NCBI GenBank assembly: GCA_001789205.1
Contig: MFYT01000076.1
Coordinates: 1 to 34,811, forward strand
DNA from: Candidatus Raymondbacteria bacterium RIFOXYA2_FULL_49_16
GTDB taxonomy: Bacteria; Fibrobacterota; OXYB2-FULL-49-7; XYB2-FULL-49-35
Length of the DNA: 34,811 bases
Direction of reading: 5' to 3'
Part shown: one piece after another, positions 917-30,794 of the stretch
Position numbering within the stretch: position 1 is the stretch's first letter
How the letters are laid out: the number at the start of each line of letters is the position of its first letter
Program-made: the position numbers and the translations under genes
Notes under the pieces: generated by a model
Database searches by the model: none
What the model saw: only the letters and a program-made list of their open reading frames with translations
What the model was told of the DNA's origin: nothing

Positions 917-2428
917 TCAGCGCCCGATTAACGCCAGGGCTTCGCGCAGGCCAGAATCACGAATGGTCCGCGTTGTGATGCCGGTCTCGAGTACGGTGTC
1001 TGATGCGACAATTGCAACCCGCGTACGCGCACGGGTGATGCCCGTGTATATAAGCTCGCGGGTAATGACAGGGGAGGGTGTGTCTGACAGAACGAGCATT
1101 ACCTTGTCGAATTCCGACCCCTGGCTTTTATGCACGGTCATGGCAAAGACAGTCTCATGTTCGGGCAAACGGCCCGGGGCTATCCTTCGTATTGTGTTGC
1201 CAGGTAAAAGAAAACAGCAGGAGAGTCTTCCTGGATTGTTCGGGTCGGGCAGTATGAGTCCGATATCGCCGTTGAATAGTTTGAGGTTGTAGTCATTTTT
1301 TGTGATTATGATTGGTCTGCCGCAATACTGCGTTTCGCCCGATCCAGACCTGGAAACAAGTATTTCGCGCGCAAGGGCATTAATGGTTTGTTCCCCATAA
1401 GGGCCTTTTTTCAGGGCGCACAGGACCCTGAAACGGCCAAAGAGGCTGAATAATTTTACACTATCTGTCTGAGAATATGCCAGCGCATTGACTGCCTTAA
1501 AATACTCTGCGTATCCGGCAATCAGTGCGTCTCTGATATAATTTTTAAACCAGCCTGGCGTCTGTATCTCAGTGAACGCGATTGCCATGTCATTTTTTAA
1601 GGCAAGATACGGGAGTGTGTCTGCCGTGTTTCCTGCATTGACCAGCTTGCTCACGTATCCAATGCCGCTGTCAGGGCTGAACCGGTAGCTTGTTTCAAGA
1701 CGTGTTATCCAATCAGCGTTGGTTGCGCATATATCGGCCAGCACCGAACCAGCCTCCACAGAGGCCAATTGGTCCTTGTCGCCCAGGAGGACAAGGCGCG
1801 TTTGCGGCAATAGCGCCTCTATGAGTTTGACCATAAGCGCAATGTCGACCATTGAGGCCTCGTCAACCACCACCACGTCAGCAGGCAGGGGGTTTTCCGC
1901 ATTGTGAGTAAAAATTCCGGTATCATATTTTGGTTTAAGCAGCCGGTGTATGGTCGAGGCCTGAAGGCCGGGCAGGGTCTTCTGCACTGCTTCCTGAAGC
2001 CGGGAGGCGCCTTTGCCAGTAGGCGCAGCAAGGGCAATGCGAATAGCTGGATCTTTTTCCCGCATGGCCAAAAGGGTCTTTGCCACACCCGTGGTTTTGC
2101 CCGTACCCGGTCCGCCGGTAATAACAGTCAGAGAGTTCTTTTTTATAAAAGCGGCAAGGGTCTGTTCGTACTGGTAATACCGGTAAAAATATAGACGCTG
2201 CTTGTCAATTATCACCGGCTTGAATTCACCAGGTACGCCGACAGACGGTGATTCTTTCAGTTTGTGGGCCACGGCCATGGCTTCGGGGCCGGCTTTTGCC
2301 AGATCGAGGCACACATGTCCTGTTGCGGTATGGGAAGAGAGCAGGGCAAAGAGCGGTTCCAGTTCCTTGTGGTCTGGTCCTGCCAGGTATGCGGCAATGC
2401 GCCTGTCAAGGCTCGTGAGTTCAGTCAT
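917..2428 (-). CDS. recD: RecBCD exonuclease V alpha subunit (RecD)
   Basis: A 503-residue superfamily 1B helicase, the 5'-3' motor subunit of RecBCD, which unwinds and degrades linear DNA ends and prepares them for RecA. Walker A GGPGTGKT is at residues 105-112 and Walker B VVVDEAS at about 187-193. Next come LLGDKDQLASVEAGSVL (motif III), TVHKSQGSEFDKV (motif V) and ELIYTGITRAR (motif VI). It is about 100 residues shorter than the E. coli protein, mainly in linkers, with all helicase motifs present. The start codon lies inside the end of recB (8-base overlap), so translation is probably coupled. It is the last gene of a recC-recB-recD operon, the same relative order as in E. coli but without ptrA. 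Confidence 0.95.
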   Translation of the reverse strand: MTELTSLDRRIAAYLAGPDHKELEPLFALLSSHTATGHVCLDLAKAGPEAMAVAHKLKESPSVGVPGEFKPVIIDKQRLYFYRYYQYEQTLAAFIKKNSLTVITGGPGTGKTTGVAKTLLAMREKDPAIRIALAAPTGKGASRLQEAVQKTLPGLQASTIHRLLKPKYDTGIFTHNAENPLPADVVVVDEASMVDIALMVKLIEALLPQTRLVLLGDKDQLASVEAGSVLADICATNADWITRLETSYRFSPDSGIGYVSKLVNAGNTADTLPYLALKNDMAIAFTEIQTPGWFKNYIRDALIAGYAEYFKAVNALAYSQTDSVKLFSLFGRFRVLCALKKGPYGEQTINALAREILVSRSGSGETQYCGRPIIITKNDYNLKLFNGDIGLILPDPNNPGRLSCCFLLPGNTIRRIAPGRLPEHETVFAMTVHKSQGSEFDKVMLVLSDTPSPVITRELIYTGITRARTRVAIVASDTVLETGITTRTIRDSGLREALALIGR

Positions 2429-5400
2429 GGCTTCCCATTATAGTTGTGCGCAGGGTTTCAATTGTTTCCTTTTTTGGTTTGTTAAAAAAGATGCCGGTTT
2501 CCGGGTTGTCCGGGCTTACACCGCGCAGGAAGATGTAATAGACACCGCCGATATGGGTTGTATAATCATAGTTTTCGATTCTAACTGACAGAAACCGGTC
2601 TAGCGCAAGAAGATATATCTGGTATTGCAGGGTGTAAAAATTGCCGTCCATGGTTTTGGCTATTGTTTCAGCGTTGTATTCACATGTCGCAGCACCCAGG
2701 CGGTTGGATTTCCAGTCAACCAGGAAGAATTTTCCATTATACTCAAAGACAAGGTCCATGAACCCGTGCATAAAGCCTTTTAGCGGGTCGAAATCCAGGC
2801 CTTCCATGTTCAGTATGTTTTTGGAAAGCGCTGTAACAGGAAAATAGAATTCCAATTCCGTGAGCCGTTTGGCACGGGGTATTTGCGAAAGTGTGCACAT
2901 GGCGCTGGGTAGTGTTACGGTCAAAACCCCTGTGACCATTGCCTGCAGGGCAGGGGCAAAGGCATGATCAAAGCCATACTGCGCCATTTTTTGAAGTATC
3001 ATTGGGGCCAGATTGTCTGTGTGTGTAAAATCCAGTTCTTCAAAGAGTTCATGCATAAAAAGGCCTGTGCGCGCTCCCGCGGGAAAGTGGTGGATGTCCA
3101 CAGTGGCGTTCTTTTCATCCAGGACCAGCGGCGCATGCAACTGGTCGCGGTCAGGAAATTCAGCGTGGCTTGCATGGGCTGTAAGACCCGAAAAGCTGCT
3201 GACCTTCCAGCGTGAATCGATTTTTCTCGAGAAATGGCGCGCTTCACATGGCGGCAGGTCTTGGGACATGGTTTGAAAGGGTTCCGCTTCTCCCAGGGGA
3301 ATGGGCGCAATCTCAATTGAACCGTTGGATTGTCCGGCAATTTTCTCAAGCGCCTGCAGCATTTCTGAGCTCGAAAGGTTCGGGTAGCTACTGCCATGAA
3401 ATACGTGCGCTGGCGCGGATGTCTCTGCTTTTCTGAACATGCCCCAGGCGGCATAGCAGAGGTTTTGGGCGCGTGTAAGCGCTACGTACATGAGGCGGAT
3501 ACTCTCAGCCAGGCTCTCTTTATCGGCAATGGCCTGGTTCTGGGAAAAGGTCTCAGACCCAAAGTCCAGGAAGACCTTATTGGTGTCTTGCGGATCGTGG
3601 AACATGAGCGCCTTGTTTTTAGGCGGCTGAGTCCACAGGAAAGGGCAGAAGACAACCGGATATTGGAGGCCTTTTGAGGCGTGAATGGTCGCGATTCTAA
3701 CAGCGCTCGCATCGCGTTCCAGGCGCAGAAGATGTTCTTCCTGCATTCCATCAGTCTCAACCCTCTGCTTTGCCAGCCACACGAGCGTCTCCTGTATCGA
3801 AAACCGCATTTCAATTACTTTCTGATGGATCACTTCAGCGCAATGAAGCAGGTTGGTGAGCCGGCGCTCCCCATTAGGCAGCTGCAACAGGCGTGCTTTT
3901 ATGGAGCGCTGTTTTAAAAGCGCGCTGAACATTGCCATGAATCCGCGCGTACGCCAGAGGTCATTATATGCCATCAGTTCTTCGAATACTGTTTGATAGG
4001 CATTGGCATCATCGCTGGTGAGGGTAAAAAGTTCAGTTCCGGAATTGCCAAGCAGTATGGTTGAAAGCGCGTTTTTTATCGCGGAGTTATTCCCTGGCCG
4101 CGCAATGCCATTCAGGACCCGCTCCAACTCGGCAATTTCAGGGGTTTCAAAAAGATTGCCGGTTTGCTGAAGAACGCTGGTAATACCAACCCTGGTCAGC
4201 GCTTCCTGTATCAGCTGGGCCTCAGCATGTTTGCGTACCAGCACAGCAATGTCCGCGGCTTCAAGGGGGGCTGTTCCCAGTGTGGCGCGTCCCTCTTTTC
4301 CCATAGTGCATAAACGGGCGATTTCATTGGCCAAGGCTTCTGCAATGGCAACGCGCGCTTCTTCCACGGAAATAACCTCTGAGGTTTCGTATCCCAGTAA
4401 TTCAGGAGATAAAAACCAGAGTTTCATGGGCGCTATCCGCTGGTTTTTTATAACGAGTTTTTTAATCCTGGGATTGTTGTCCGATGCTTCTGATTCAGGC
4501 GGTTTGATTGCGTCATAGATAAAAGTGTCGGACCTGTTGAATATTGTGTTTACGGCTTTTACCAGCCCGGGTTCTGATCGGTAATTTGTGCTCAGTGTAT
4601 ACTGGTTTTCTACGGGAATGTGCGCGGCCGCGCCGAGATACGTAAAGATATCAGCGTTCCTGAAGCTGTAGATGGCCTGCTTGGGATCGCCGATGAGAAA
4701 CAGGGGCGTGGAATTTTCAGAACCAAACAAGGTCTTGAAAATCGTGTATTGCATCTGGTCCGTATCCTGAAACTCGTCAACTAACGCTGCTTTAAAGGTT
4801 CCTCGAATACCCTGTATAAGAAGTCCCGCGGTCTCCTGTTGCAGGGCCTTGTGGAGCGAACGGATGAGATCATTAAAAGAAAAGAGATGGAGACGCTCTT
4901 TCTTTTCAATCAATTCAGCTTCAGCCGATCGCATGAATTCGCGTTGCAAAGCAATGATCTGGTTTTCATAGGTGGATTTCAGCGCACCGGCCTTTTCCAG
5001 AAAAACGTCCCAGGCGAGGAAAAAAGCGTGGTGCGGGACTTTTTTGTTTTTTTTCACTCCTTTTGCTATTCCCCCTGTTGTCAGCTTGTCAGTATCCGCC
5101 GTAAGCCGCAGCCATGAGGTTGGGTCTGGATTGCGCAAAGAGGTTTCAAGATAGGCTGCAAGACGCGTTGAAATCGCGGGACTGTAAGAAACCGCGCTCA
5201 GTGTGTTGCTGTCGTTCAAGATTGCCGCAATGGTTTCTTTATCTTTGCTCCAAACTGTGCAGATTTTTTGATATGCTTCGCAATACGCGGCCTCTGTCAG
5301 ATAACAATCCGCAGCCGCGCAATCGGGAATCACTGCAAGGTCAGGGTGTTTCTGCAGCCTGTCCAACCGGTCCAGTAGAATAGTAATGGTCAGCCCCTTT

Positions 5401-5957
5401 TCCCGTGCAAGGAAGGAAGCAAAGAGCGGGGAAGCGGTATAGACGCGCTTCCGGTAGAAATCAGCCGCTGTTTCGCGGTAAAGCGCGCGAACGTCGGCCG
5501 CGAGTTCCGTCTCAAAGAGCATGCCGCTTTCAAAGGGAAACTGTTTGAGCATACGCTGGCAAAATCCATGGATGGTAAAAATGGCCGCTTCATCAAATGT
5601 GTTAAGCGCGGTAGTCAGAAATGCAATTCCTCTGGCCCGATCGTTTTTTTCACACCATTTTTCAAGGTAGTCCCCCAGGTCCTGATGTTCGAGGTCAGTA
5701 TATTTGTTTTTGCCGTCCGCCAGTATATCGATGCAGGTCCTTATTGTTGTGCGTATCCTTTTGCGCAGTTCTTCAGTCGCGTCGTTGGTAAAGGTTACCA
5801 CCAGAATTTGGCTGGCGGAAAGCTTCTGTTCCATGATAAGGCGCAGGAAAAGACGCGTTATATTATGCGTCTTGCCTGTGCCCGCATTGGCCTCAATAAG
5901 GTGCACGCCATTGAGCGGCTGGCAGGTAAGGGGGTTAAAAAGGAGTCTTTCTGTCAT
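2421..5957 (-). CDS. recB: RecBCD exonuclease V beta subunit (RecB)
   Basis: A 1178-residue UvrD-like SF1A helicase fused to a C-terminal nuclease; in the RecBCD complex it is the 3'-5' motor and the only nuclease. Walker A ANAGTGKT is at residues 23-30. The Walker B stretch LVDEFQDTDQ, the GDPKQAIYSFR motif, TIHASKGLQYPVVF and the YVALTRAQ motif VI are all present in order. The nuclease site appears intact: a His in TGLFMHELFEELDF, Asp1068 in GFMDLVF, and Asp1081/Lys1083 in VDWKSN match the E. coli metal ligands and catalytic lysine by motif. Its ATG overlaps the recC stop as ATGA (5954-5957), indicating translational coupling. Length matches the family (E. coli 1180). Confidence 0.97.
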   Translation of the reverse strand: MTERLLFNPLTCQPLNGVHLIEANAGTGKTHNITRLFLRLIMEQKLSASQILVVTFTNDATEELRKRIRTTIRTCIDILADGKNKYTDLEHQDLGDYLEKWCEKNDRARGIAFLTTALNTFDEAAIFTIHGFCQRMLKQFPFESGMLFETELAADVRALYRETAADFYRKRVYTASPLFASFLAREKGLTITILLDRLDRLQKHPDLAVIPDCAAADCYLTEAAYCEAYQKICTVWSKDKETIAAILNDSNTLSAVSYSPAISTRLAAYLETSLRNPDPTSWLRLTADTDKLTTGGIAKGVKKNKKVPHHAFFLAWDVFLEKAGALKSTYENQIIALQREFMRSAEAELIEKKERLHLFSFNDLIRSLHKALQQETAGLLIQGIRGTFKAALVDEFQDTDQMQYTIFKTLFGSENSTPLFLIGDPKQAIYSFRNADIFTYLGAAAHIPVENQYTLSTNYRSEPGLVKAVNTIFNRSDTFIYDAIKPPESEASDNNPRIKKLVIKNQRIAPMKLWFLSPELLGYETSEVISVEEARVAIAEALANEIARLCTMGKEGRATLGTAPLEAADIAVLVRKHAEAQLIQEALTRVGITSVLQQTGNLFETPEIAELERVLNGIARPGNNSAIKNALSTILLGNSGTELFTLTSDDANAYQTVFEELMAYNDLWRTRGFMAMFSALLKQRSIKARLLQLPNGERRLTNLLHCAEVIHQKVIEMRFSIQETLVWLAKQRVETDGMQEEHLLRLERDASAVRIATIHASKGLQYPVVFCPFLWTQPPKNKALMFHDPQDTNKVFLDFGSETFSQNQAIADKESLAESIRLMYVALTRAQNLCYAAWGMFRKAETSAPAHVFHGSSYPNLSSSEMLQALEKIAGQSNGSIEIAPIPLGEAEPFQTMSQDLPPCEARHFSRKIDSRWKVSSFSGLTAHASHAEFPDRDQLHAPLVLDEKNATVDIHHFPAGARTGLFMHELFEELDFTHTDNLAPMILQKMAQYGFDHAFAPALQAMVTGVLTVTLPSAMCTLSQIPRAKRLTELEFYFPVTALSKNILNMEGLDFDPLKGFMHGFMDLVFEYNGKFFLVDWKSNRLGAATCEYNAETIAKTMDGNFYTLQYQIYLLALDRFLSVRIENYDYTTHIGGVYYIFLRGVSPDNPETGIFFNKPKKETIETLRTTIMGSHD

Positions 5958-8900
5958 ATCTTTTCCACAGTGTTGCGCAGAGGCATGAATATGTTCCTGG
6001 CCAGCGCTTCAAATTCTTTTGTCAGGGGATTGGCGTGTCTGAAGCAGATTTCAAAATAGGGGTCACGAGATTCCGGTTCAATCATATATCCGCCATTCCA
6101 CTGGGCGCGGGCCCTCTCCAACGAAGGTACTTTTCCATTGGAATATGCCCATGCTGATTCAGGGAAAAAAGGCAGGGGCCGGGAAAGCCCGTACCAGTAG
6201 ATTGCGAGTAGTTCGTCGAGCAGTTCGCACGGTGCGTCCGGTTGCTTTATCCTGTAGGCTTTGTCGAGACAGAAGAGAAAGCTCTGGCCCGCATGGCCAT
6301 TGTTTTTGTCCGCAGCCAGGGCCAGATGAGATATCCATGCTTCGAGAAGATGCTTTGCTTTCATATTGGCTGGAAATATTTTTACCAGACCCGAATTTGA
6401 AAGGCCGTTTATTGTCCCCAGAAGAGTGCAGGGACCTGATGTATGGCTGACAGAGACCGGGTTTTTCCTGGATATTCCTGTATGCCGCGTAATAAGGCGT
6501 TTGAAACCATTGACCTGGTCCGCAAGGTCCTGAAAAGCGGCAGCCCCTGCCTTGCCGTGGGGGAGAATGCCTTGCGCCTTTGCAGCTGCAAAAGAATTTG
6601 GACCATTTTCTCCATTGTGAAGAAGTTCTAGTTTCAGAAAATAACCGTCCAGTCCCTGGATGTCATAGGGTTCTTCTGATTCAAAAAGTTCCGGACCCTG
6701 GTCACAATAGATGCCAAGCCGTTTCTGAAGAAGGAATTTGGCCGGATTTGTAAAAAATGCGATAAGGTCTCTGACGCGTACCTGTTTGAATTCATCGCCG
6801 GGTTCAGGCAGTTTTTCGCGAATAAAGGCTGGGATTTCTGATTTGGGGTGCAGCGCTGCTTTGCAGGCCCGGGCGTTTTCCTCAGAATAGGTGAAGATGG
6901 CATGGCCCGAGAAATATTTTTCGCTAAAAGCCTGGAGGGGATGGACAATCAGAGTTTGTTTTTCAATGCCGCACCTTGCTGCGTCCGTGTATCCTTTTTG
7001 GACATAATCGAGCAATTCGCTGACAACTACCGAAGGCGGGTGCATGGCGTTTGTCTGTACGTTCTGGCCCACGTAGCTGATATAGAGTGTCTTCCGGGCC
7101 GAGAGGAGCGCTTCAAGAAAGATATACCGGTCGTCAGCTTTGCGCGACCTGTCGCCGGAACGCGGTTCCCGGGCAATAAAGTCAAACCAGGGATGGCGGG
7201 TTGTACGGGGGAATGCCGTATCGTTCATGCCCAGCAGGCAAATGACCTTAAAGGGAATGCTCCGCATGGGCAGCATTTTGCAGAAGGTGATACCATGGGT
7301 CAGGAAACCATGGGAATGGCTCTCTTCGCCAAGCCGTGATGTCAGCCAGGACAAAACAACCGGCAGATCAAGCGGCGAGGAAAATCCGGCAAGGGCCTGC
7401 TTTTCGCCCAGCGTATTGATTGCCGTACGGATGCAGTGCAAGTCGTTTGCCGTATCAGAATCATCATGGAAAAAAGTTTCCAGCGACTGGTTGAGCAGCC
7501 CCCGCCATTCGTGCAGCATCATGCTTTTTCGGGTGCTTCTGGAAAATGCGACCAGATGATCAAAGAATGCGAGCAGATTTCCCAGAATCTGGCCATTGTT
7601 GCCTTCAATATGGTCGTAGGGAAGGGTATCGTTGAAAAAGAGGCGATTTTTGCCAGGCAGCATGTATCCGAGTAGCAGCCGTTCAATCCCAGCGGCCCAG
7701 GTGTTTTCCTTTGTCCGCGGCAGTCCAATCTCCTCCTTGTGCTGCGTATCAATGCCCCAGCGGACATTGACTTCGCGTACCCATGAAAGGCAACGGATTG
7801 CATCGTCAGCGCTAAGTCCGGCTTTTTTCCGCAATGGCTCTGATTCGAGGAGCGCCGCAATGGCCGGCGCCTCGAACCTGCTTGGGCAAAGGTTGAGAAG
7901 CGAAAGGAAGGCGCTGATAACGCCGCTCTCTTTTGAGAGCGTGCGGTCAGCAATGGAATAGGGAAGCCGCATGTGGCTGGCTGGCGGATTGTCGAACACA
8001 GCCCTGATGAACGGCACATAGGATTCAATGTCAGGGCTCATGATGATGATATCGCGCAAAACTAGGTCAGGATCGTTGTTGAGCAGGTCGAGCAGTTGGT
8101 CGTACAAAACCTCGGTTTCACGCATGGGACTGTGACAGGAATGGACCTGGATGGACCGGTCATCCAATGCGATTGGTGTTTTGACAGAGGATGGCCCGGA
8201 AAAACTGGTTATATCCGACTGTATCCGGGTCAGCAACGTATGGGCAGCCACTGATTGGGCGGCAGGGATGGGGGCTTCCATGATATCATGGTTGTACAAA
8301 ATATCGAAGAAATCCCTTCCCAATGCGCCCAATGATGCAAGCAGGGAATTGGCGTCTTCCAGATGCAGTTTGTCCACTGAAGCTCGTTCTTTGCGTAAAA
8401 TGCGCAGTTTTTCCCGGTTCGACTTGGAATCGCCCCAATACAGACCCGGCACAGGGTTCATGAGAAGAAGGAGTATCTCCATATGGCGGCTGAGTGCATC
8501 CAGCACTCTGATGTGGTATTCCGGAAGCGCGGAAATACCAAAAATAATTATTCGTGGTGCCAGGCCAAGAGCGCTGGTTTCTTCATTTTCCAGCTGCTGT
8601 ATGGTATTTGACAGCAATCGGGCCCGATGAAGGCCAGGGGCTGCGGCATGCACCAGTTTTCTCCATAGCTGGGCCTGCCAGAGATGTTCAGATATTGGGT
8701 TTTTGCCTTTTTCCCAGTCAAGGACCATATCGGGCCTGAAGATAGTATATTGGTCAAAGGTATCGGCGATTTTTCCTGAAAGCTGGAAAAGTTTGAGCCC
8801 TGAACGGCCGTTTTCAAGATAATGCTTTATGCTCGAGAACGAGGGAAGATCCAGACATTCGGGGAGCGTTTTCATAACCAGCCACGGGAGGTTTTCCTTG

Positions 8901-9172
8901 TTAAAAGAGTCCTGGTTTTCCGCAGGCAGGTTTGGATTCAAACTTTGGAATATTTCATGTACAAACGCGTTGGGAAAGGGAAAGCGAAGGTTCGCGCATA
9001 TGCCCAGCCGCGAGGCAAGTTCGAGGCTGATCCATCGTTCCATGCCCTTGGATTGGACCACAATGATCTCTTCACGCAGGGGGTCGTCGTATTGAGGTTC
9101 CCTGAGAACGTCCGATAGTTTTTCAACCAGTATTTCGAGCTGGTTGTTGGTGTAGAGCCGTATACCTGGCAT
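5954..9172 (-). CDS. recC: RecBCD exonuclease V gamma subunit (RecC)
   Basis: A 1072-residue subunit that scaffolds RecBCD, splits the duplex and, in characterised relatives, reads Chi. The N-terminus (IRLYTNNQLEILVEKL) and the IIVVQSKGMERWISLELA stretch at about 40-57 are typical of RecC. The MPMRSIPFKVICLLGMND block near the middle is also conserved. Family identity is further fixed by the operon partners. The start is chosen because it gives the expected N-terminus. No clear Shine-Dalgarno sequence precedes it, and an AT-rich stretch just upstream (about 9173-9200, reading TTAATATATATTTTACC on the minus strand) could hold the promoter. Which Chi sequence it recognises cannot be predicted from this window. 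Confidence 0.95.
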   Translation of the reverse strand: MPGIRLYTNNQLEILVEKLSDVLREPQYDDPLREEIIVVQSKGMERWISLELASRLGICANLRFPFPNAFVHEIFQSLNPNLPAENQDSFNKENLPWLVMKTLPECLDLPSFSSIKHYLENGRSGLKLFQLSGKIADTFDQYTIFRPDMVLDWEKGKNPISEHLWQAQLWRKLVHAAAPGLHRARLLSNTIQQLENEETSALGLAPRIIIFGISALPEYHIRVLDALSRHMEILLLLMNPVPGLYWGDSKSNREKLRILRKERASVDKLHLEDANSLLASLGALGRDFFDILYNHDIMEAPIPAAQSVAAHTLLTRIQSDITSFSGPSSVKTPIALDDRSIQVHSCHSPMRETEVLYDQLLDLLNNDPDLVLRDIIIMSPDIESYVPFIRAVFDNPPASHMRLPYSIADRTLSKESGVISAFLSLLNLCPSRFEAPAIAALLESEPLRKKAGLSADDAIRCLSWVREVNVRWGIDTQHKEEIGLPRTKENTWAAGIERLLLGYMLPGKNRLFFNDTLPYDHIEGNNGQILGNLLAFFDHLVAFSRSTRKSMMLHEWRGLLNQSLETFFHDDSDTANDLHCIRTAINTLGEKQALAGFSSPLDLPVVLSWLTSRLGEESHSHGFLTHGITFCKMLPMRSIPFKVICLLGMNDTAFPRTTRHPWFDFIAREPRSGDRSRKADDRYIFLEALLSARKTLYISYVGQNVQTNAMHPPSVVVSELLDYVQKGYTDAARCGIEKQTLIVHPLQAFSEKYFSGHAIFTYSEENARACKAALHPKSEIPAFIREKLPEPGDEFKQVRVRDLIAFFTNPAKFLLQKRLGIYCDQGPELFESEEPYDIQGLDGYFLKLELLHNGENGPNSFAAAKAQGILPHGKAGAAAFQDLADQVNGFKRLITRHTGISRKNPVSVSHTSGPCTLLGTINGLSNSGLVKIFPANMKAKHLLEAWISHLALAADKNNGHAGQSFLFCLDKAYRIKQPDAPCELLDELLAIYWYGLSRPLPFFPESAWAYSNGKVPSLERARAQWNGGYMIEPESRDPYFEICFRHANPLTKEFEALARNIFMPLRNTVEKI

Positions 9173-21573: not shown

Positions 21574-22473
21574 TTATTTCTGCAGCATCAGTTTGATCGC
21601 CTGGTTCTGATTGTTCGATGTTAACTTGGCTATATAGGTACCAGAAGGCAGGTTGGCCGTATTCCATTCAAATCTGCTGCCTGTGATGTTATTGAAATTT
21701 CCAACAACCTTTCCCGACATATTGAAAATCATTATACCAGCGGAAGAAACCGGCCGGGCGAATTGCAGTGTTGTGGTCGGGTTGAAGGGGTTAGGAAAGG
21801 CGGCCACATTGCAGATCGCGGCTGTTCTTTTACCTTCTGCATGGACTTCCTGGGAGTAACACCAGAGCATTGGGCCGTTGCCGCTTTCCTTGGACCAGAA
21901 GTGGTTGTTGATGCCGGACGATCCTTGATCGAAGATTACAATGCCTTTATAGACGCCGCTAATGAGACCTTGCAATATCTGGCCGGAAACCGGAAAGACA
22001 TGGAACTCCAGTTCTTGCTTTTGTCCGTTATAAATAACAGGATCCATCTGCGCGGCGAAATTGGCATTGGGTGTGCTGTTTGGCCAGGGTGTTGTGCCTG
22101 TTTGGTATTGATAACAAGAGCCGTTGGGATCGTTTGATCCGGTTACACCTGATCCTTCAAACCAATCGCAGGTTATGCCAGCGACAACCGCGTTATAGCT
22201 CATAAGAGTTGTATCTCCGGCAGTTGCGGTATTTGAAAGTATGATACTACCCGCCATGGGCGTAAAACCGATCAATGACATGTCCCAATTAGTCATTAGG
22301 ACGCCCTGGTTGTTTGATTTTATGCGTACAAAACTTTTTCCACCCCAGTTTTTGTCCTGGTCTGTGCCTGCTTCAAGGTAGTTGTCCCCGGTGATAATCC
22401 CAATCATGCTGTCGATTTGAGAGAAAGCCGATGTTGCGCAAACCAGAAGAATCGCCGCAAAGAACTGTTTCAT
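21574..22473 (-). CDS. secreted DNRLRE-like protein with T9SS-type sorting domain
   Basis: A 299-residue secreted protein. The Sec signal peptide ends near residue 18 (TSAFS-Q). Residues about 25-205 look like a DNRLRE-type beta-sandwich, as found on surface and carbohydrate-active proteins (YLEAGTDQDKNWGGKSF motif, then SLIGF and DWFEGSGVTG). The C-terminal 80 residues form a T9SS type A-like sorting domain (FPNPFNPTTTLQF at about 226-238, ending AIKLMLQK). No catalytic residues are recognised; adhesion or a structural role is a guess. Start supported by GGGAGG upstream. It converges on the aconitase gene, with a strong terminator between. Confidence 0.82.
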   Translation of the reverse strand: MKQFFAAILLVCATSAFSQIDSMIGIITGDNYLEAGTDQDKNWGGKSFVRIKSNNQGVLMTNWDMSLIGFTPMAGSIILSNTATAGDTTLMSYNAVVAGITCDWFEGSGVTGSNDPNGSCYQYQTGTTPWPNSTPNANFAAQMDPVIYNGQKQELEFHVFPVSGQILQGLISGVYKGIVIFDQGSSGINNHFWSKESGNGPMLWCYSQEVHAEGKRTAAICNVAAFPNPFNPTTTLQFARPVSSAGIMIFNMSGKVVGNFNNITGSRFEWNTANLPSGTYIAKLTSNNQNQAIKLMLQK

Positions 22474-22598
22474 TTTTCCTCCCCATCTGAATGAATATTT
22501 AAATTCCTTAATACCACCACGTTAGCGACTCTTTAATATAGTTAATTTATATTAAATTGCACAAATTTACCACTTTTTTTAATCGGATAAACTAAGCG

Positions 22599-22638
22599 AA
22601 AAAAAAGCATGTTTCCTTGTGAGAAACATGCTTTTTTT
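22599..22638 (-). terminator. intrinsic terminator
   Basis: GCATGTTTC and GAAACATGC form a 9-bp stem with a seven-base loop, extended by A and T runs on either side. On the minus strand eight T residues follow the stem. It lies just downstream of the secreted-protein gene ending at 22658. Confidence 0.9.
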
Positions 22639-22657
22639 GAAAACTGGAATGAAGCGG

Positions 22658-23782
22658 TTATTTCATCAGGATCAGTCTTTTGGAAACAACTGAATTGCCA
22701 ACCGTGAGGCGTGAGAAATAGACGCCAGAAGACATGTTCTGCGCGTTCCATACTGTTGAGCCTTTGCCGCTTACGCTGTTTGAATAAACTACTTTGCCGG
22801 CAGAGTTGAAAATCTTCAGCATGCCTTTTAAACCCAGCGTGTTATAGGTAATGGTGGTTGTGGGATTGAAAGGATTGGGATTGTTGTCAATGGCGATTTT
22901 ACCGGCAACTTCAGCTGCTTCATTTTCTACGCTAACCTGGGCAAGAGAGCCGTAAGCAAGAAGGTGCATGGTGTTGCCATCTGTGGTCCAAGGAACGTTT
23001 GCTACTGATACTGCGGTGCCGCCGTGCATTCCATCATAGCCCCCGCCTTCACCAGCGATTCCAGAGGTTTTGCCTGTGTCGCCAACACCAGCTTGTGAGA
23101 GGCAAACAATAGCCCATGCGCTGGTACTGCTGATGTTCTGTAGAATGTAGTTGACCTGATCAGTTACGTCTACCCTGAAAAATTGTTTGTCGAGAAGCGG
23201 GGAAGCATCGCCAGTGGTGCGACCCTGAGGAGAGGTAAAATTAATAATTTCTTCGGCACCGGCAATGGTAAGGTCGTAGCTAAGCGTATTCATGGGATCA
23301 AGGTCGGCCCACACAGCATCGTCGGGCATGGCGTCAGCAGATCCCCACATCATAATGCCAAAAGAGACATCCACAACACCACAACGGATTGCAACAGGGC
23401 CACCATTGCAGAGGGGGCCGTTTCCGCTTGGCCAATCGTCATATTCACCGCGTATAAAAGCGGAATCAACACTGCCGCCGATATTCTCGGTATTGTTTAG
23501 GTCGCCGGAGAAAATAACACCGCACCAGCCCTGATTGTCCAGAGGATTTGAGCCAAAGCTGAAACCTGTACCAGCATAGCCAAGGCCTGTGCTGTTGTTT
23601 GCTGTAACGATTTTTCCTTCGTGGACAAAGGCGTTTGCCGGAAGGTTTGGTCCTGGGTTGTCGGTAAGGCCATACCCATTGGTGGTCGCCTTGTACCAGT
23701 AGACATGCGATCCGCTGGCCAACTGTGCGTAGGTGCAGATGCTCATTGCGAGAACACCTACTGCGATCAGTGCTTTTTTCAT
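22658..23782 (-). CDS. secreted protein of unknown fold with T9SS-type sorting domain
   Basis: A 374-residue secreted protein. Residues 1-20 are a Sec signal peptide (MKKALIAVGVLAMSICTYAQ). The middle (about 25-290) is Gly/Asn/Asp-rich beta-type sequence with several Cys and Trp, probably a beta-sandwich of the kind found on surface proteins, but I recognise no family or catalytic motif. Residues about 301-374 are a T9SS type A-like sorting domain (NPNPFNPTTTITY ... VSKRLILMK). The start was moved 16 codons in from the longest frame, because ATG 23782 begins the signal peptide and follows AGGAGGA. It has a TTGACA promoter and a strong terminator, so it is probably a well-expressed single gene. 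Confidence 0.82.
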   Translation of the reverse strand: MKKALIAVGVLAMSICTYAQLASGSHVYWYKATTNGYGLTDNPGPNLPANAFVHEGKIVTANNSTGLGYAGTGFSFGSNPLDNQGWCGVIFSGDLNNTENIGGSVDSAFIRGEYDDWPSGNGPLCNGGPVAIRCGVVDVSFGIMMWGSADAMPDDAVWADLDPMNTLSYDLTIAGAEEIINFTSPQGRTTGDASPLLDKQFFRVDVTDQVNYILQNISSTSAWAIVCLSQAGVGDTGKTSGIAGEGGGYDGMHGGTAVSVANVPWTTDGNTMHLLAYGSLAQVSVENEAAEVAGKIAIDNNPNPFNPTTTITYNTLGLKGMLKIFNSAGKVVYSNSVSGKGSTVWNAQNMSSGVYFSRLTVGNSVVSKRLILMK

Positions 23783-23862
23783 GTACATCCTCCTCATTTT
23801 GGTTATGTGTTGAATCTTATCTGTTCCCACCCTTAAAGAACAACTAAAATTATTGATATAAA

Positions 23863-26670: not shown

Positions 26671-26816
26671 ATTTTACTCCTTCGATTAATTCCATAGATT
26701 AATAATTAGTCGCGGAAACAGTTAAAAAGTTCATTCCCCCCGGAACAAACTGAACATATGGAAATATATATAAAAAAGTACATGAAAGATAGGGACTTTT
26801 GTTATTTTATATTATT

Positions 26817-27740
26817 ATGGGCAAAGCCATTCTATTTCTGCTCGCCACGATACTCTGTTCGTGCGCAAAAGATGCATGGCATACTTATGATACATCAAAT
26901 CTACCAATTAAAACCAACCTGATCCGGCAGGTAATCATTGGTCAGGAGGGGTTGTCGTGGATAGGGACATTTGGAAACGGACTGTACCAATGGAACAATG
27001 GCCTGTGGCGATCAATTTCCGCCATTGGTCCGCATGAATATATCTTTTGCCTTAAACAGGATACCAAGGGGGGGCTCTGGGTTGGCACTGCGCGGAGCGG
27101 GGCCTGGTATTTCGATGGCAAAAACTGGACAAACTATTCTACCTCACAGGGATTGCGCGACAACAATGTATGGGACCTGCTTGTTGAAGATGACGGCACA
27201 ATCTGGCTTGGGTCGCGCTATCATGGCATGTGCGTCATCTGCCCGGATACGCTCGCATGCCTGGGCCGGGCCCAGGGCCTGCCTGACAACCAGATAACCG
27301 CTGTGGCAAAGGACAGCACTGGCACAGTCTGGATTGGCACAGCAAACAGCGGTATGTGCGGCTTCAGGAACAGGCAGGCGGTGGATTACATGAACCGTCA
27401 TACTGGTCTCTCGGGAAACTATATCAGGGCCATTATATGCGACTCTCTGCCGCGATGGGTCGCTTCGTGGGACGGCGGGCTCGATTTTTTTAACGGAAAA
27501 TCCTGGGAACGCCAGCCGGTTGTTCAACCGCCGGTTGTGGTCCTGGCGTTTGACCCAAAGGGCAGGCTTTGGGCTGGCACCTGGGGCCATGGTGTTTTTA
27601 TCATGGGAAAAAAAGGCTGGAAAAACATTGATACCTTAAACAGCGGGCTTGCGGACAATCATGTGATAGATATCAGGTTTGATGAACAGGGCAAGGCGTA
27701 CATGGCCACATCCCGGGGTGTTGCGGTATACGACAGGTAA
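26817..27740 (+). CDS. beta-propeller (Reg_prop-like) lipoprotein
   Basis: A 307-residue exported protein. A hydrophobic signal leads to Cys16 (LCSC), a plausible lipobox. The rest is six or so repeats of the two-component-regulator propeller type: LSWIGTFGNGLYQW, LWVGTARSGAWYF, IWLGSRYHGMCVI, VWIGTANSGMCGF, RWVASWDGGLDFF and LWAGTWGHGVFIM. These blades normally form the periplasmic sensor of hybrid histidine kinases, but here there is no kinase, membrane helix or DNA-binding domain, so it is a free-standing propeller. Start choice is uncertain: ATG 26817 gives a clean lipoprotein signal, while TTG 26799 would add six residues; neither has a good ribosome site. It ends two bases from the convergent diguanylate cyclase gene. 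Confidence 0.82.
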   Translation: MGKAILFLLATILCSCAKDAWHTYDTSNLPIKTNLIRQVIIGQEGLSWIGTFGNGLYQWNNGLWRSISAIGPHEYIFCLKQDTKGGLWVGTARSGAWYFDGKNWTNYSTSQGLRDNNVWDLLVEDDGTIWLGSRYHGMCVICPDTLACLGRAQGLPDNQITAVAKDSTGTVWIGTANSGMCGFRNRQAVDYMNRHTGLSGNYIRAIICDSLPRWVASWDGGLDFFNGKSWERQPVVQPPVVVLAFDPKGRLWAGTWGHGVFIMGKKGWKNIDTLNSGLADNHVIDIRFDEQGKAYMATSRGVAVYDR

Positions 27741-27742
27741 GG

Positions 27743-28759
27743 TCATCCGTCCATGTAGATGCGGTTTTTCCCCAATTTTTTTGCGTAATAGAGATTGTGA
27801 TCAGCCTTGTTGATCAGGTCCATCAGTTGCTTCTCTACAGGCGTATCTATTTCTTTGCACGCAATGCCGATGCTGAGCGAAACCTCGATGCCCACGGGCA
27901 TTTTCTCTTTTGCAGCCGTATGGATTTTCCCCATGATCTCTATTACGCTTTTCCGGTCAATCTCGGGAAAAAAGAAAATAAATTCATCGCCCCCGTACCG
28001 GCCCACGATATCGGACGCCCGAGTATGTTTCATGAATGCCCTGCCGGCTGTTTCAAGCACTTTATCGCCTTTCTGGTGGCCGTGGGTATCATTTATAAAC
28101 TTGAAATTATCAATGTCCACCATGGCAACGCCCACCATGTAACGGTTGCGCTGGGCAAGATAGGCAAGGGGGACCACGGTGTTAAAAAAACTTTTCCGGT
28201 TGAAAACGCCGGTGAGTTTGTCCATGGTGCTTTCGCGCACGAGTTCGCTGTTCCGTTCGCGCATGGCGTTTATGGCCTCGTCCAATAGCAGGAGCGGCGG
28301 GTTGTCCTGAATGAAAGGGCGCACTTTATCGGTAAAAGTCCGGACATGCATTTCATAGTCGACCGCGGGTCTGGGCGCCCCGTCAAACGATGGGGCCATG
28401 AAGTTGAAGAGGCGTTCGAGTACCGGATATAACAGGTAGAATTCGAGGCGGTAGGCAAGGACAATGCTGTCAATATCGGCGGAGCTGGCTTTGTACTTCT
28501 GGTACATTGCGGCGGCTTTTTTCTCAATTGACGTAAGATCGTCGATTATTTTATCACGGTCATCAAAGAGCATGGGAACCATGCCGTTGTCCGCCAATTC
28601 AAGAAGATGCTTCCAGTAGCTTACATGTATTTGTTCATCTTTTCGCATCTGGTCCCATATTTCCCGGAGACGCGGGTCCGCAGCGCTGTCGTACAGTGAC
28701 GAGTATACAAGGACCGCGAGGCGGTCCAGTTCGAGACATTTTTCAATTATGGCCTTCAT
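27743..28759 (-). CDS. diguanylate cyclase with ferritin-like N-terminal domain
   Basis: A 338-residue cytoplasmic protein. Residues about 178-338 form a GGDEF domain that makes c-di-GMP from two GTP. The signature GGDEF is exact (256-260), DKLTGVFNRKSF starts it, and the RxxD inhibitory site (Arg247-Asp250) lies five residues upstream as in feedback-inhibited enzymes. Residues about 1-125 form a predominantly helical domain with rubrerythrin/ferritin-like spacing: Glu10 (helix 1), Glu42-x2-His45 (DEQIHVSYW, helix 2), Glu79 (helix 3) and Glu106 (helix 4). A second ExxH is missing, so the metal site, if real, is not a standard rubrerythrin one. An oxygen, iron or redox sensing role is an inference. 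It is transcribed away from a DUF6599-like gene. Confidence 0.88.
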   Translation of the reverse strand: MKAIIEKCLELDRLAVLVYSSLYDSAADPRLREIWDQMRKDEQIHVSYWKHLLELADNGMVPMLFDDRDKIIDDLTSIEKKAAAMYQKYKASSADIDSIVLAYRLEFYLLYPVLERLFNFMAPSFDGAPRPAVDYEMHVRTFTDKVRPFIQDNPPLLLLDEAINAMRERNSELVRESTMDKLTGVFNRKSFFNTVVPLAYLAQRNRYMVGVAMVDIDNFKFINDTHGHQKGDKVLETAGRAFMKHTRASDIVGRYGGDEFIFFFPEIDRKSVIEIMGKIHTAAKEKMPVGIEVSLSIGIACKEIDTPVEKQLMDLINKADHNLYYAKKLGKNRIYMDG

Positions 28760-28818: not shown

Positions 28819-29307
28819 ATGATTAGAACCATGGTCCTGTGCGTACTTCCGGTCTTTTGCTTGAACGCGGTAGATCTGCTGCCGATTCCGGACAGCGTCC
28901 CTGGTTTGGACAGAAACGCAAAAACAGGGTGCGTGAACGGCACGGTTTCGTTTGCCGCTGATTTGTACAAGGCCATAGATGGCGGCGCTGAAGTGTATAT
29001 AGACAATGGATTTTGCGCAGGCGCCTTTGGCGGGTATCTTTTAAATGGCCAGGAAACCTGTATTGAAATATACGATCAGGGAAGTGCGAAAAACGCGCGC
29101 ATTGTGTACGATTCAACCACTACAGGGGAGTATAGGTTCCTGAAAGTACCGCTCATATGTTCACGTATAGATACTTCAAGCCCTTTTGCGACCATTTTTG
29201 AAGGCGTCCACGACCGGTTTTTCATCAGGCTCTCCCGGAACGCGCGTGACACGGTTTCAGAAAACATGCTTGTCCGCATTGCGCGGGAAATTTCCAAGAA
29301 AAAATAG
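28819..29307 (+). CDS. exported DUF6599-like protein (paralogue, no sorting tail)
   Basis: A 162-residue protein with a hydrophobic N-terminus (MIRTMVLCVLPVFCLNA), probably a signal peptide. The mature part resembles the DUF6599-like domain of the 24388-25194 gene: LLPIPDSVPGLD, LYKAIDGGAEVYIDNGF, AFGGY, CIEIYDQGSAKNAR, TTGEYR and ICSRIDTSSPF correspond segment by segment. Unlike that gene it stops after the domain (ISKKK) and has no sorting-type tail, so the two paralogues probably end up in different places. The start at 28819 is chosen for the signal peptide; a longer upstream frame from 28696 runs antisense through the cyclase gene and is unlikely. Function unknown. Confidence 0.72.
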   Translation: MIRTMVLCVLPVFCLNAVDLLPIPDSVPGLDRNAKTGCVNGTVSFAADLYKAIDGGAEVYIDNGFCAGAFGGYLLNGQETCIEIYDQGSAKNARIVYDSTTTGEYRFLKVPLICSRIDTSSPFATIFEGVHDRFFIRLSRNARDTVSENMLVRIAREISKKK

Positions 29308-29313
29308 CGGCGT

Positions 29314-30078
29314 TTAAAATACCGCAGGAATATGGTCCTGGTATTCGACAATAGCGCTGTTTTCATCAACAACGCCGTCGTGACAAGCATTGCATTGGGT
29401 CATGCCGTAACCATGGCTGTTGGTTTGCGTATTGTGGCACGACTGGCAGGTGAAAGTACTGTCCCACGCTGCTGATGCGTTCCAGGCAATATCCTCCATA
29501 TCAGATTCCTCGGGCAGATGGCATCCGATATTGGTGCAGGTCCGGTTTTGGAAGCTCATTCCCTGGGCGGAAACCGTGAGTCCGCCATTATTGTGGCCCA
29601 ATGCGGCAATGCCTGTATGGCAGGTGGCGCAGGCAATATGGTATGAGGCGCTGTCCACATGTTTTTGGTGTGCGCCCATGGAAAAGGCCGGGTTGTCGTG
29701 ACAGTCCGCGCATTGTTTTGATGCATTCCATCTCCAGACCATTGGCGCGTTAACCTTGGCTGCCCGTTTTTCAGCGTCAGCGTGGCAGGCGACATTCGTA
29801 CATGTTCCATTCGTGTAGGTTCCGCTGAACGTGAGGTCGACCGTGCCATTGTTGTGCACTGTGTCAGCTCCTTTGCCAGGTTCGGGGTGGCAGCTGTCGC
29901 AGGTCAGATTGATCCCTTCCGCAAGATGTATCTGGTGGCTGCCGGAGACCGGATTTATCAAATGGCAGGCGGAGCATTCATCAAAGGCGCCTTGGTCTGA
30001 GGGCTGGCTGCATTGTACGAACGCCAGTAGCGCCGCGATGGCAGCAATGGCACAAAAAGTCTTGCCAAGACCTTTCAT
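29314..30078 (-). CDS. octahaem c-type cytochrome (CxxCH and CxxxxCH motifs), possible lipoprotein
   Basis: A 254-residue exported cytochrome. There are six CxxCH haem sites (Cys35, 60, 123, 150, 211, 229) and two CxxxxCH sites (CTNVACH at 93, CTNIGCH at 181). The alternation of CxxxxCH with a following CxxCH is the pattern of the Geobacter-type cytochrome domain. The signal ends at Cys23 (LAFVQC); a lipid anchor is possible, but Gln at -1 is unusual. It would carry electrons outside the inner membrane, perhaps at the outer face of the outer membrane. The start at 30078 follows AGGAG and overlaps the previous gene's stop as ATGA, so the two cytochromes are translationally coupled. Confidence 0.9.
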   Translation of the reverse strand: MKGLGKTFCAIAAIAALLAFVQCSQPSDQGAFDECSACHLINPVSGSHQIHLAEGINLTCDSCHPEPGKGADTVHNNGTVDLTFSGTYTNGTCTNVACHADAEKRAAKVNAPMVWRWNASKQCADCHDNPAFSMGAHQKHVDSASYHIACATCHTGIAALGHNNGGLTVSAQGMSFQNRTCTNIGCHLPEESDMEDIAWNASAAWDSTFTCQSCHNTQTNSHGYGMTQCNACHDGVVDENSAIVEYQDHIPAVF

Positions 30079-30794
30079 CGTATGGCTCCTTTTCTCTCGT
30101 GGCAGTCTGCGCAAAAGGCGGGAAGCGCGTGGCAGACAGAGCAATCGCTCTGCTTGAATTTTACGTCAATTCCATGTGTGTACCGGTAATCGGGCCTGTG
30201 GATTTTTTGTCCTGTTGCACCTGAATGGCATTCGGTGCAGTCAGCGGTCCGGTGGCACATGGCACATTCGTCTTTTTTAAATACAGCTTCTGCGCCATGC
30301 TCATCACGATGCATCCAGTTGGCTGTGGCATGGTCATCGGGTTTTTCAGCGGTCTGGTGGCAGAAAAGGCAATTTATTGTCCGCATTGCCTTGCGATGGC
30401 ATTGGAGGCACGCCTTCATGTTGGGCAATGTATTTTCAATTTTTTCTGTTTTTAACAGGGGACCGTGGCAGGCTGCGCAGTCCATGGAATGTTTCTGGTG
30501 CGTCTTGTGGCTGAATTTCAGGTTTTCGCCTTTTATCTTATGAGGTATGCGAAAACTATTGTCTTTCAGGGCAAAGGGTTTTTCGTCGCTGAACTTCATG
30601 TCCTCGTGGCATTGGCCGCATGTTTTTGTGTCCACTTCAGGGAGGGAATCCATCGAAGGTGATCCACCTATTTTATCATGGCAGGCGTCGCATGCAAGGC
30701 CCGCTGACTCAACATGCTGGCGATGGGAAAAAAACTGCGTGCTACCCAGGGCAAGGATGAAACTGACGCAAACAATGAAGCAGGCTGATTTCAT
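30075..30794 (-). CDS. nine-haem c-type cytochrome, probably periplasmic
   Basis: A 239-residue exported cytochrome with nine CxxCH motifs (first Cys at 35, 59, 106, 129, 142, 177, 186, 218 and 228) and many extra His (for example at 97, 100, 102, 162, 166) that can be axial ligands. The signal peptide covers about residues 1-19 (ends LGSTQ). The close motif packing resembles cytochrome c3/c7-like and Geobacter OmaB-type electron carriers. It begins seven bases after the barrel gene stop and overlaps the next cytochrome gene by four bases, so it is the middle gene of a three-gene operon. A role as the periplasmic partner that loads an outer-membrane conduit is inferred from context. Confidence 0.9.
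   Translation of the reverse strand: MKSACFIVCVSFILALGSTQFFSHRQHVESAGLACDACHDKIGGSPSMDSLPEVDTKTCGQCHEDMKFSDEKPFALKDNSFRIPHKIKGENLKFSHKTHQKHSMDCAACHGPLLKTEKIENTLPNMKACLQCHRKAMRTINCLFCHQTAEKPDDHATANWMHRDEHGAEAVFKKDECAMCHRTADCTECHSGATGQKIHRPDYRYTHGIDVKFKQSDCSVCHALPAFCADCHERKGAIR

Follow-up and report, generated by a model that had tools for sequence, protein, structure and literature searches.

Control of cyclic di-GMP (c-di-GMP) by a diiron centre is established through hemerythrin domains. In Bhr-DGC, the hemerythrin-GGDEF protein of Vibrio cholerae, the activity of the diferrous form is described as about tenfold that of the diferric form, and the ligands of the hemerythrin domain are given as five His, one Glu and one Asp (PMC9388753). 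The words ferritin and rubrerythrin do not occur in the main text of a review on c-di-GMP sensing (PMC8846402, word search). Among the matches listed in the open-licence literature there was likewise no study of a ferritin-like or rubrerythrin domain fused to a GGDEF domain or diguanylate cyclase. PDB entry 3EZU, a Geobacter sulfurreducens protein (NP_951600.1, which we take to be the product of GSU0542), is a full-length homologue of the protein described here and was released in 2008; the ferritin-like plus GGDEF architecture has therefore been public since that year and the domain combination is not new. The structure was reported with an unidentified ligand, and no metal is listed for it in the figure legend and Table 3 of PMC2954221; PMC4215984 also deals with this entry. 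No published function for the 3EZU protein was found in the open-licence papers searched.

Domain make-up and predicted fold

The window, by which we mean the whole analysed stretch of 34,811 nucleotides from Candidatus Raymondbacteria bacterium RIFOXYA2_FULL_49_16 (contig MFYT01000076.1; host assembly of 5.43 Mb), carries a minus-strand gene with its start codon at 28759 and its stop at 27743, encoding 338 amino acids, whereas a plus-strand reading of the same interval contains internal stops. An earlier sequence-only reading of the window had placed a ferritin-like domain fused to a GGDEF cyclase at exactly these coordinates. The gene is divided as follows:

27743 to 28759, minus strand: whole gene, ferritin-like domain, linker helix and GGDEF domain, 338 amino acids
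28310 to 28759, minus strand: N-terminal domain, residues 1-150, predicted ferritin-like (AlphaFold2 pLDDT 93.5, fold comparison, family profile)
28226 to 28300, minus strand: linker helix, residues 154-178, running into the GGDEF domain (full-length model)
27761 to 28228, minus strand: GGDEF domain, residues 178-333 (PF00990, E 1.2e-37)
28010 to 28021, minus strand: codons of RASD, residues 247-250, the I-site (RxSD-type RxxD in 17/17 full-length rows)
27980 to 27994, minus strand: codons of GGDEF, residues 256-260

The GGDEF and RxxD motifs claimed earlier are thus both present. The domain scores above the curated cut-offs of the diguanylate cyclase profiles PF00990 (129.7 vs 23.8 bits) and TIGR00254 (151.2 vs 37.4 bits), and with the alignment to 3EZU over residues 4-335 (E 7.6e-49) this puts the fusion beyond chance. 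The catalytic and guanine-binding positions D215, D217, N223 and D232 are intact, their roles being presumed from PleD numbering. By the same numbering D232 matches the position at which a Hypr (cGAMP) cyclase has Ser, and its Asp suggests that the window protein is not of the Hypr type. The Asp versus Ser rule for these enzymes is that of PMC6456294. The host genome has eight PilZ matches, so c-di-GMP receptors are likely present. Our best reading of the protein is that of a predicted cytosolic diguanylate cyclase with a ferritin-like domain.

In the AlphaFold2 model built from 26 aligned relatives, the N-terminal domain (N-domain) consists of helices 2-25, 29-57, 68-89, 95-108, 112-124 and 131-150. 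The four-helix domain proposed earlier was nearly right: an extra helix, 68-89, which holds Glu79, is predicted between helices B and C, and helix C is broken at about 109-112. In the full-length model (17 rows, pLDDT 91.4) helix 154-178 enters the GGDEF domain. Foldseek with the N-domain model returned 3EZU as the sole match below 0.001 (7.4e-4). VIA-align ranked 3EZU first (Z 14.3; 135 residues aligned at rmsd 2.6) and then 1VJX, a diiron-carboxylate protein of ferritin-like fold (Z 12.9; 139 residues at rmsd 3.0), followed by YciF, Dps and mini-bacterioferritin or bacterioferritin-type chains at Z about 10-12; as Z values of 11-13 are common among helical bundles, the sequence evidence matters for the assignment.

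The window N-domain alone had no significant Pfam match (Ferritin_2 at E 0.065-0.075, below the cut-off), and PF02915 (Rubrerythrin) did not match the window protein, which a profile does not place in that family. Among the 26 N-domains, 13 matched Pfam Rubrerythrin at E <= 0.1, the best at 4.1e-6, and that of L103 passed the cut-off (26.8 vs 22.8). Searched against the PDB, a 17-row N-domain profile matched the designed diiron protein 2HZ8 (2e-5), 1MFT (1.2e-4), EncB (3.3e-4) and 1VJX (4.2e-4), as well as 5C39 and 5N5E within the range 2e-5 to 4e-4; the same list includes likely chance matches (designed coiled coils, Mediator subunit 11), so its weaker rows prove little alone. A profile-profile comparison of the family with ten stand-alone ferritin-like proteins gave a match of 98.4% over 143 columns, which is not independent because the ten were found with the family's own profiles. 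The signal for helices C-D repeating A-B was weak (best local score 10.6 vs a shuffled mean of 8.6, equalled by 9/200 shuffles); its register pairs H45 with H138. Taken together, a ferritin-like fold is well supported for the modelled N-domain. The earlier description as rubrerythrin-like holds for the predicted fold, the Rubrerythrin matches of half the relatives and the diiron proteins matched by the family profile, but not for PF02915 in the window protein itself, nor for the full ligand set E, ExxH, E, ExxH.

Candidate metal site, family and neighbourhood

Conservation was read from alignment A6, 26 N-domains whose rows were picked by hand. It omits L138, L139 and L140, which nearly duplicate the L136 group, as well as the short L142-L144 and repeat loci for genes already present. 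The conserved positions are:

28724 to 28726, minus strand: D12 codon, acid of helix A (D or E in 22/26 rows)
28625 to 28636, minus strand: E42-x-x-H45 codons, helix B (E42 in 15/26, H45 in 26/26; gapless alignment to the ExxH of designed diiron proteins)
28442 to 28444, minus strand: E106 codon, helix C (24/26 rows)
28346 to 28357, minus strand: Y135-x-x-H138 codons, helix D (Y in 22/26, H in 21/26)

H45, E106, Y135 and H138 are invariant in the A5 set (17/17). Glu10, Glu42-x2-His45, Glu79 and Glu106, listed earlier as candidate ligands, all occur where they had been placed. E42, H45 and E106 proved conserved, whereas E10 (E in 3/26) and E79 (E in 10/26) did not, and half of the present set, D12, Y135 and H138 (three of the six), had been missed. 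Helix-face angles put D12 (+59 degrees), E42, H45, E106 and Y135 within 60 degrees of the hydrophobic side, with H138 at -71 degrees. E10 was rejected as a ligand because, besides its poor conservation, it points away from this face (-141 degrees); E79 was rejected on conservation, its inward angle of +48 degrees being slight counter-evidence. Position 111 is too variable (H, S, Y, D, Q, E; Tyr in the window protein) to be a certain ligand. Cys8 on helix A (codon 28736-28738), one turn from D12, is conserved in 15/17 N-domains and might join in metal binding or redox chemistry.

In the alignment with designed diiron proteins, a Glu stands opposite D12 and the ExxH opposite E42xxH45 with no gap, and E106 and H138 align with a helix C Glu and a helix D His that are invariant in the ten stand-alone ferritin-like proteins. 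The residue three before the helix D His is mostly acidic in those ten and Tyr in the 3EZU-type family, so that one usual bridging carboxylate is missing. Compared with the Rubrerythrin set, the helix A acid, the ExxH and the helix C Glu are present and helix D reads YxxH. Judging from these alignments, D12 with the ExxH is a putative ferritin/rubrerythrin-type half-site, and the second half-site would have Tyr where Glu is usual. From the alignment and the helix faces we infer that the residues cluster.

We then compared the site with the catalytic motif in alignment A7, which comprises every full-length row of the GGDEF type that was found (17). The full set (acid at 12, E42, H45, E106, Y135, H138) occurred in 10/10 rows with GG[DE]EF and in 0/7 rows with an altered motif (Fisher p 5e-5, which counts rows and not events, the seven altered rows representing about four lineages: L087; L147; the Geobacter pair L149/L150, close to 3EZU; and L108/L109/L131). 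An acid at position 66 follows the motif state as closely as the site set does, and general decay could therefore explain part of the link. In L108 (1507-2505), L109 (1012-2010) and L131 (965-1963) the site residues and GGDEF are both gone (DFSSF, NFSTF and SFSTF) and the RxSD I-site is kept; by their motifs these products may be c-di-GMP-binding proteins.

Counting matches that resemble the ferritin-like-GGDEF family and not short ferritin-like proteins, the family was present in 2/167 genomes of the window's phylum, in 9/395 genomes (10 places at E < 1e-20) of the phylum of a Geobacteraceae record and 3/141 of that record's order, and in 3/17 of the phylum of L007. The phylum of L006 (record labelled Nitrospirota; 245 genomes) yielded four full-length GGDEF proteins and six diverged stand-alone domains. 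Such a stand-alone form, about 192-193 amino acids long and carrying Lys42 and Cys135, is seen in L095 and L136-L141 and recurs in that phylum. L006 itself has no in-frame ATG, GTG or TTG around 4998 before 5100 though the homologous domain starts upstream, which leaves its start codon doubtful or points to a sequence error. In L103-L107 the same ferritin-like domain sits on a short four-Cys C-terminal stretch in place of GGDEF; the Cys residues are arranged as C-x2-C ... C-x2-C, a KIRD-like motif is also present, and family searches gave no informative match for this stretch.

Concerning the neighbourhood, a convergent Reg_prop (propeller) gene (26799-27740) adjoins the stop codon of the cyclase gene. 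Upstream, a plus-strand gene (28819-29307) runs divergently; the N-terminus of its product resembles a signal peptide, and no Pfam family matched (longer frame tested). Beyond this gene are minus-strand multihaem cytochrome genes (29314-30794). The redox link that had been drawn from this proximity found no support: the plus-strand gene intervenes, and no CxxCH ORF occurred in the loci of 15 relatives, four of them (L158, L160, L164, L167) shortened by contig ends. A common operon was rejected on the same two observations. A promoter and terminator scan was uninformative (7 promoter-like sites vs 5.6 expected). The host genome has four rubrerythrin matches; L172 (G000:C1:24832-25047), a rubrerythrin match with one internal TGA, lies beside intact ones. 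Elsewhere in the window, on the minus strand, three adjoining genes at 917-9172 (RecD-like, UvrD-helicase or RecB-like, and Exonuc_V_gamma/RecC) apparently form a RecBCD cluster, and two proteins at 21574-23830 carry Por_Secre_tail C-terminal sorting domains.

Proposed gating and alternative explanations

The best explanation of these data, which we hold with moderate confidence, is a diguanylate cyclase gated by a putative ferritin-like metal site. D12, E42-x-x-H45, E106 and H138 would bind metal, most likely two irons, with Y135 in or beside the site. A change of metal state, through oxidation by O2 or peroxide or through loss of metal, would shift the helical bundle; helix 154-178 would relay this shift to the GGDEF dimer, switching c-di-GMP synthesis, while binding of the product at RASD would limit output. 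What has been computed for such a protein is its domain make-up, its predicted fold, the conserved set and the loss of that set jointly with the catalytic motif. Metal binding, iron as the metal, the redox signal, the helix as its route and the sign of the effect are what we infer beyond this.

The putative site might instead take zinc, manganese or another metal and report how much of it is available instead of a redox state, as the zinc-binding CZB domain does in the cyclase DgcZ. The conservation of Cys8, H45, H138 and often H111 gives a His/Cys-rich set that could suit zinc, CZB is itself a helical bundle with three His and one Cys (PMC8846402), and the manganese peptide 5C39 is among the designed diiron-type relatives matched by profile. 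However, the carboxylates E42 and E106 are conserved alongside the His residues, which is the ferritin-like pattern, position 111 varies and is Tyr in the window protein, and the listed Pfam matches of the 26 N-domains include no CZB family; we consider this explanation unlikely. Equally improbable in our view is that metal is not involved at all, the N-domain being retained because it dimerises or binds an organic ligand and its polar residues being structural. The ligand seen in 3EZU (PMC2954221) and the persistence of the fold in several lineages that lack the site residues would fit this, but the site-less lineages also lack the catalytic motif (0/7 intact vs 10/10), so 3EZU-like members may be atypical, and the same residues are kept with the four-Cys output of L103-L107. 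A third alternative is a protein whose main role is to bind c-di-GMP at its RxxD and whose cyclase activity is slight or absent. This would agree with the RxSD/RASD found in 17/17 rows, even in the three without a GGDEF motif (L108, L109, L131); with every catalytic position of the window protein intact, it seems very improbable.

The metal-gated cyclase could be extended to a separate class of ferritin-like sensors, an idea we regard as doubtful though possible. In such a class Tyr would replace the second bridging Glu (22/26 rows) and at least two outputs, GGDEF and four-Cys, would be served; the Tyr would tune the redox properties or form a stable iron-phenolate chromophore, and several phyla would possess a c-di-GMP switch gated by O2 or peroxide.

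Relation to known systems

Compared with the window protein, 3EZU has the same domain order and a similar N-domain fold, but it carries Thr at 42, Gln at 106 and Tyr at 138, and DGDEF for GGDEF. Since its site is degenerate and the set is absent from altered-motif rows, the missing metal in that structure says little about the window protein. The ferritin-like-GGDEF family is uncharacterised, and its first structure dates back to 2008. Its predicted fold is well supported, and a metal-gated cyclase is a plausible reading.

Like the window protein, in which the diiron site is putative, Bhr-DGC has a helical domain of diiron type N-terminal to a GGDEF cyclase (PMC9388753). Its domain is a hemerythrin, whereas the 26 N-domains had no hemerythrin family in their listed Pfam matches (E <= 0.1); by analogy, the proposed gating would resemble that of Bhr-DGC with an N-domain that is probably not a hemerythrin. 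With rubrerythrin and ferritin-like diiron proteins (PF02915, 1VJX, EncB) the window protein shares the predicted fold, the helix A acid, the helix B ExxH, the helix C Glu and the helix D His, and it differs from them in the helix D Tyr, the extra helix 68-89, the lack of a rubredoxin part and the fusion to a cyclase. If the proposal is true, a second, unrelated diiron fold has been turned to signalling from the chemistry of peroxide and iron, and the family offers a natural comparison, with members with and without the site, a site-less crystal structure and a set of six residues that can be mutated.
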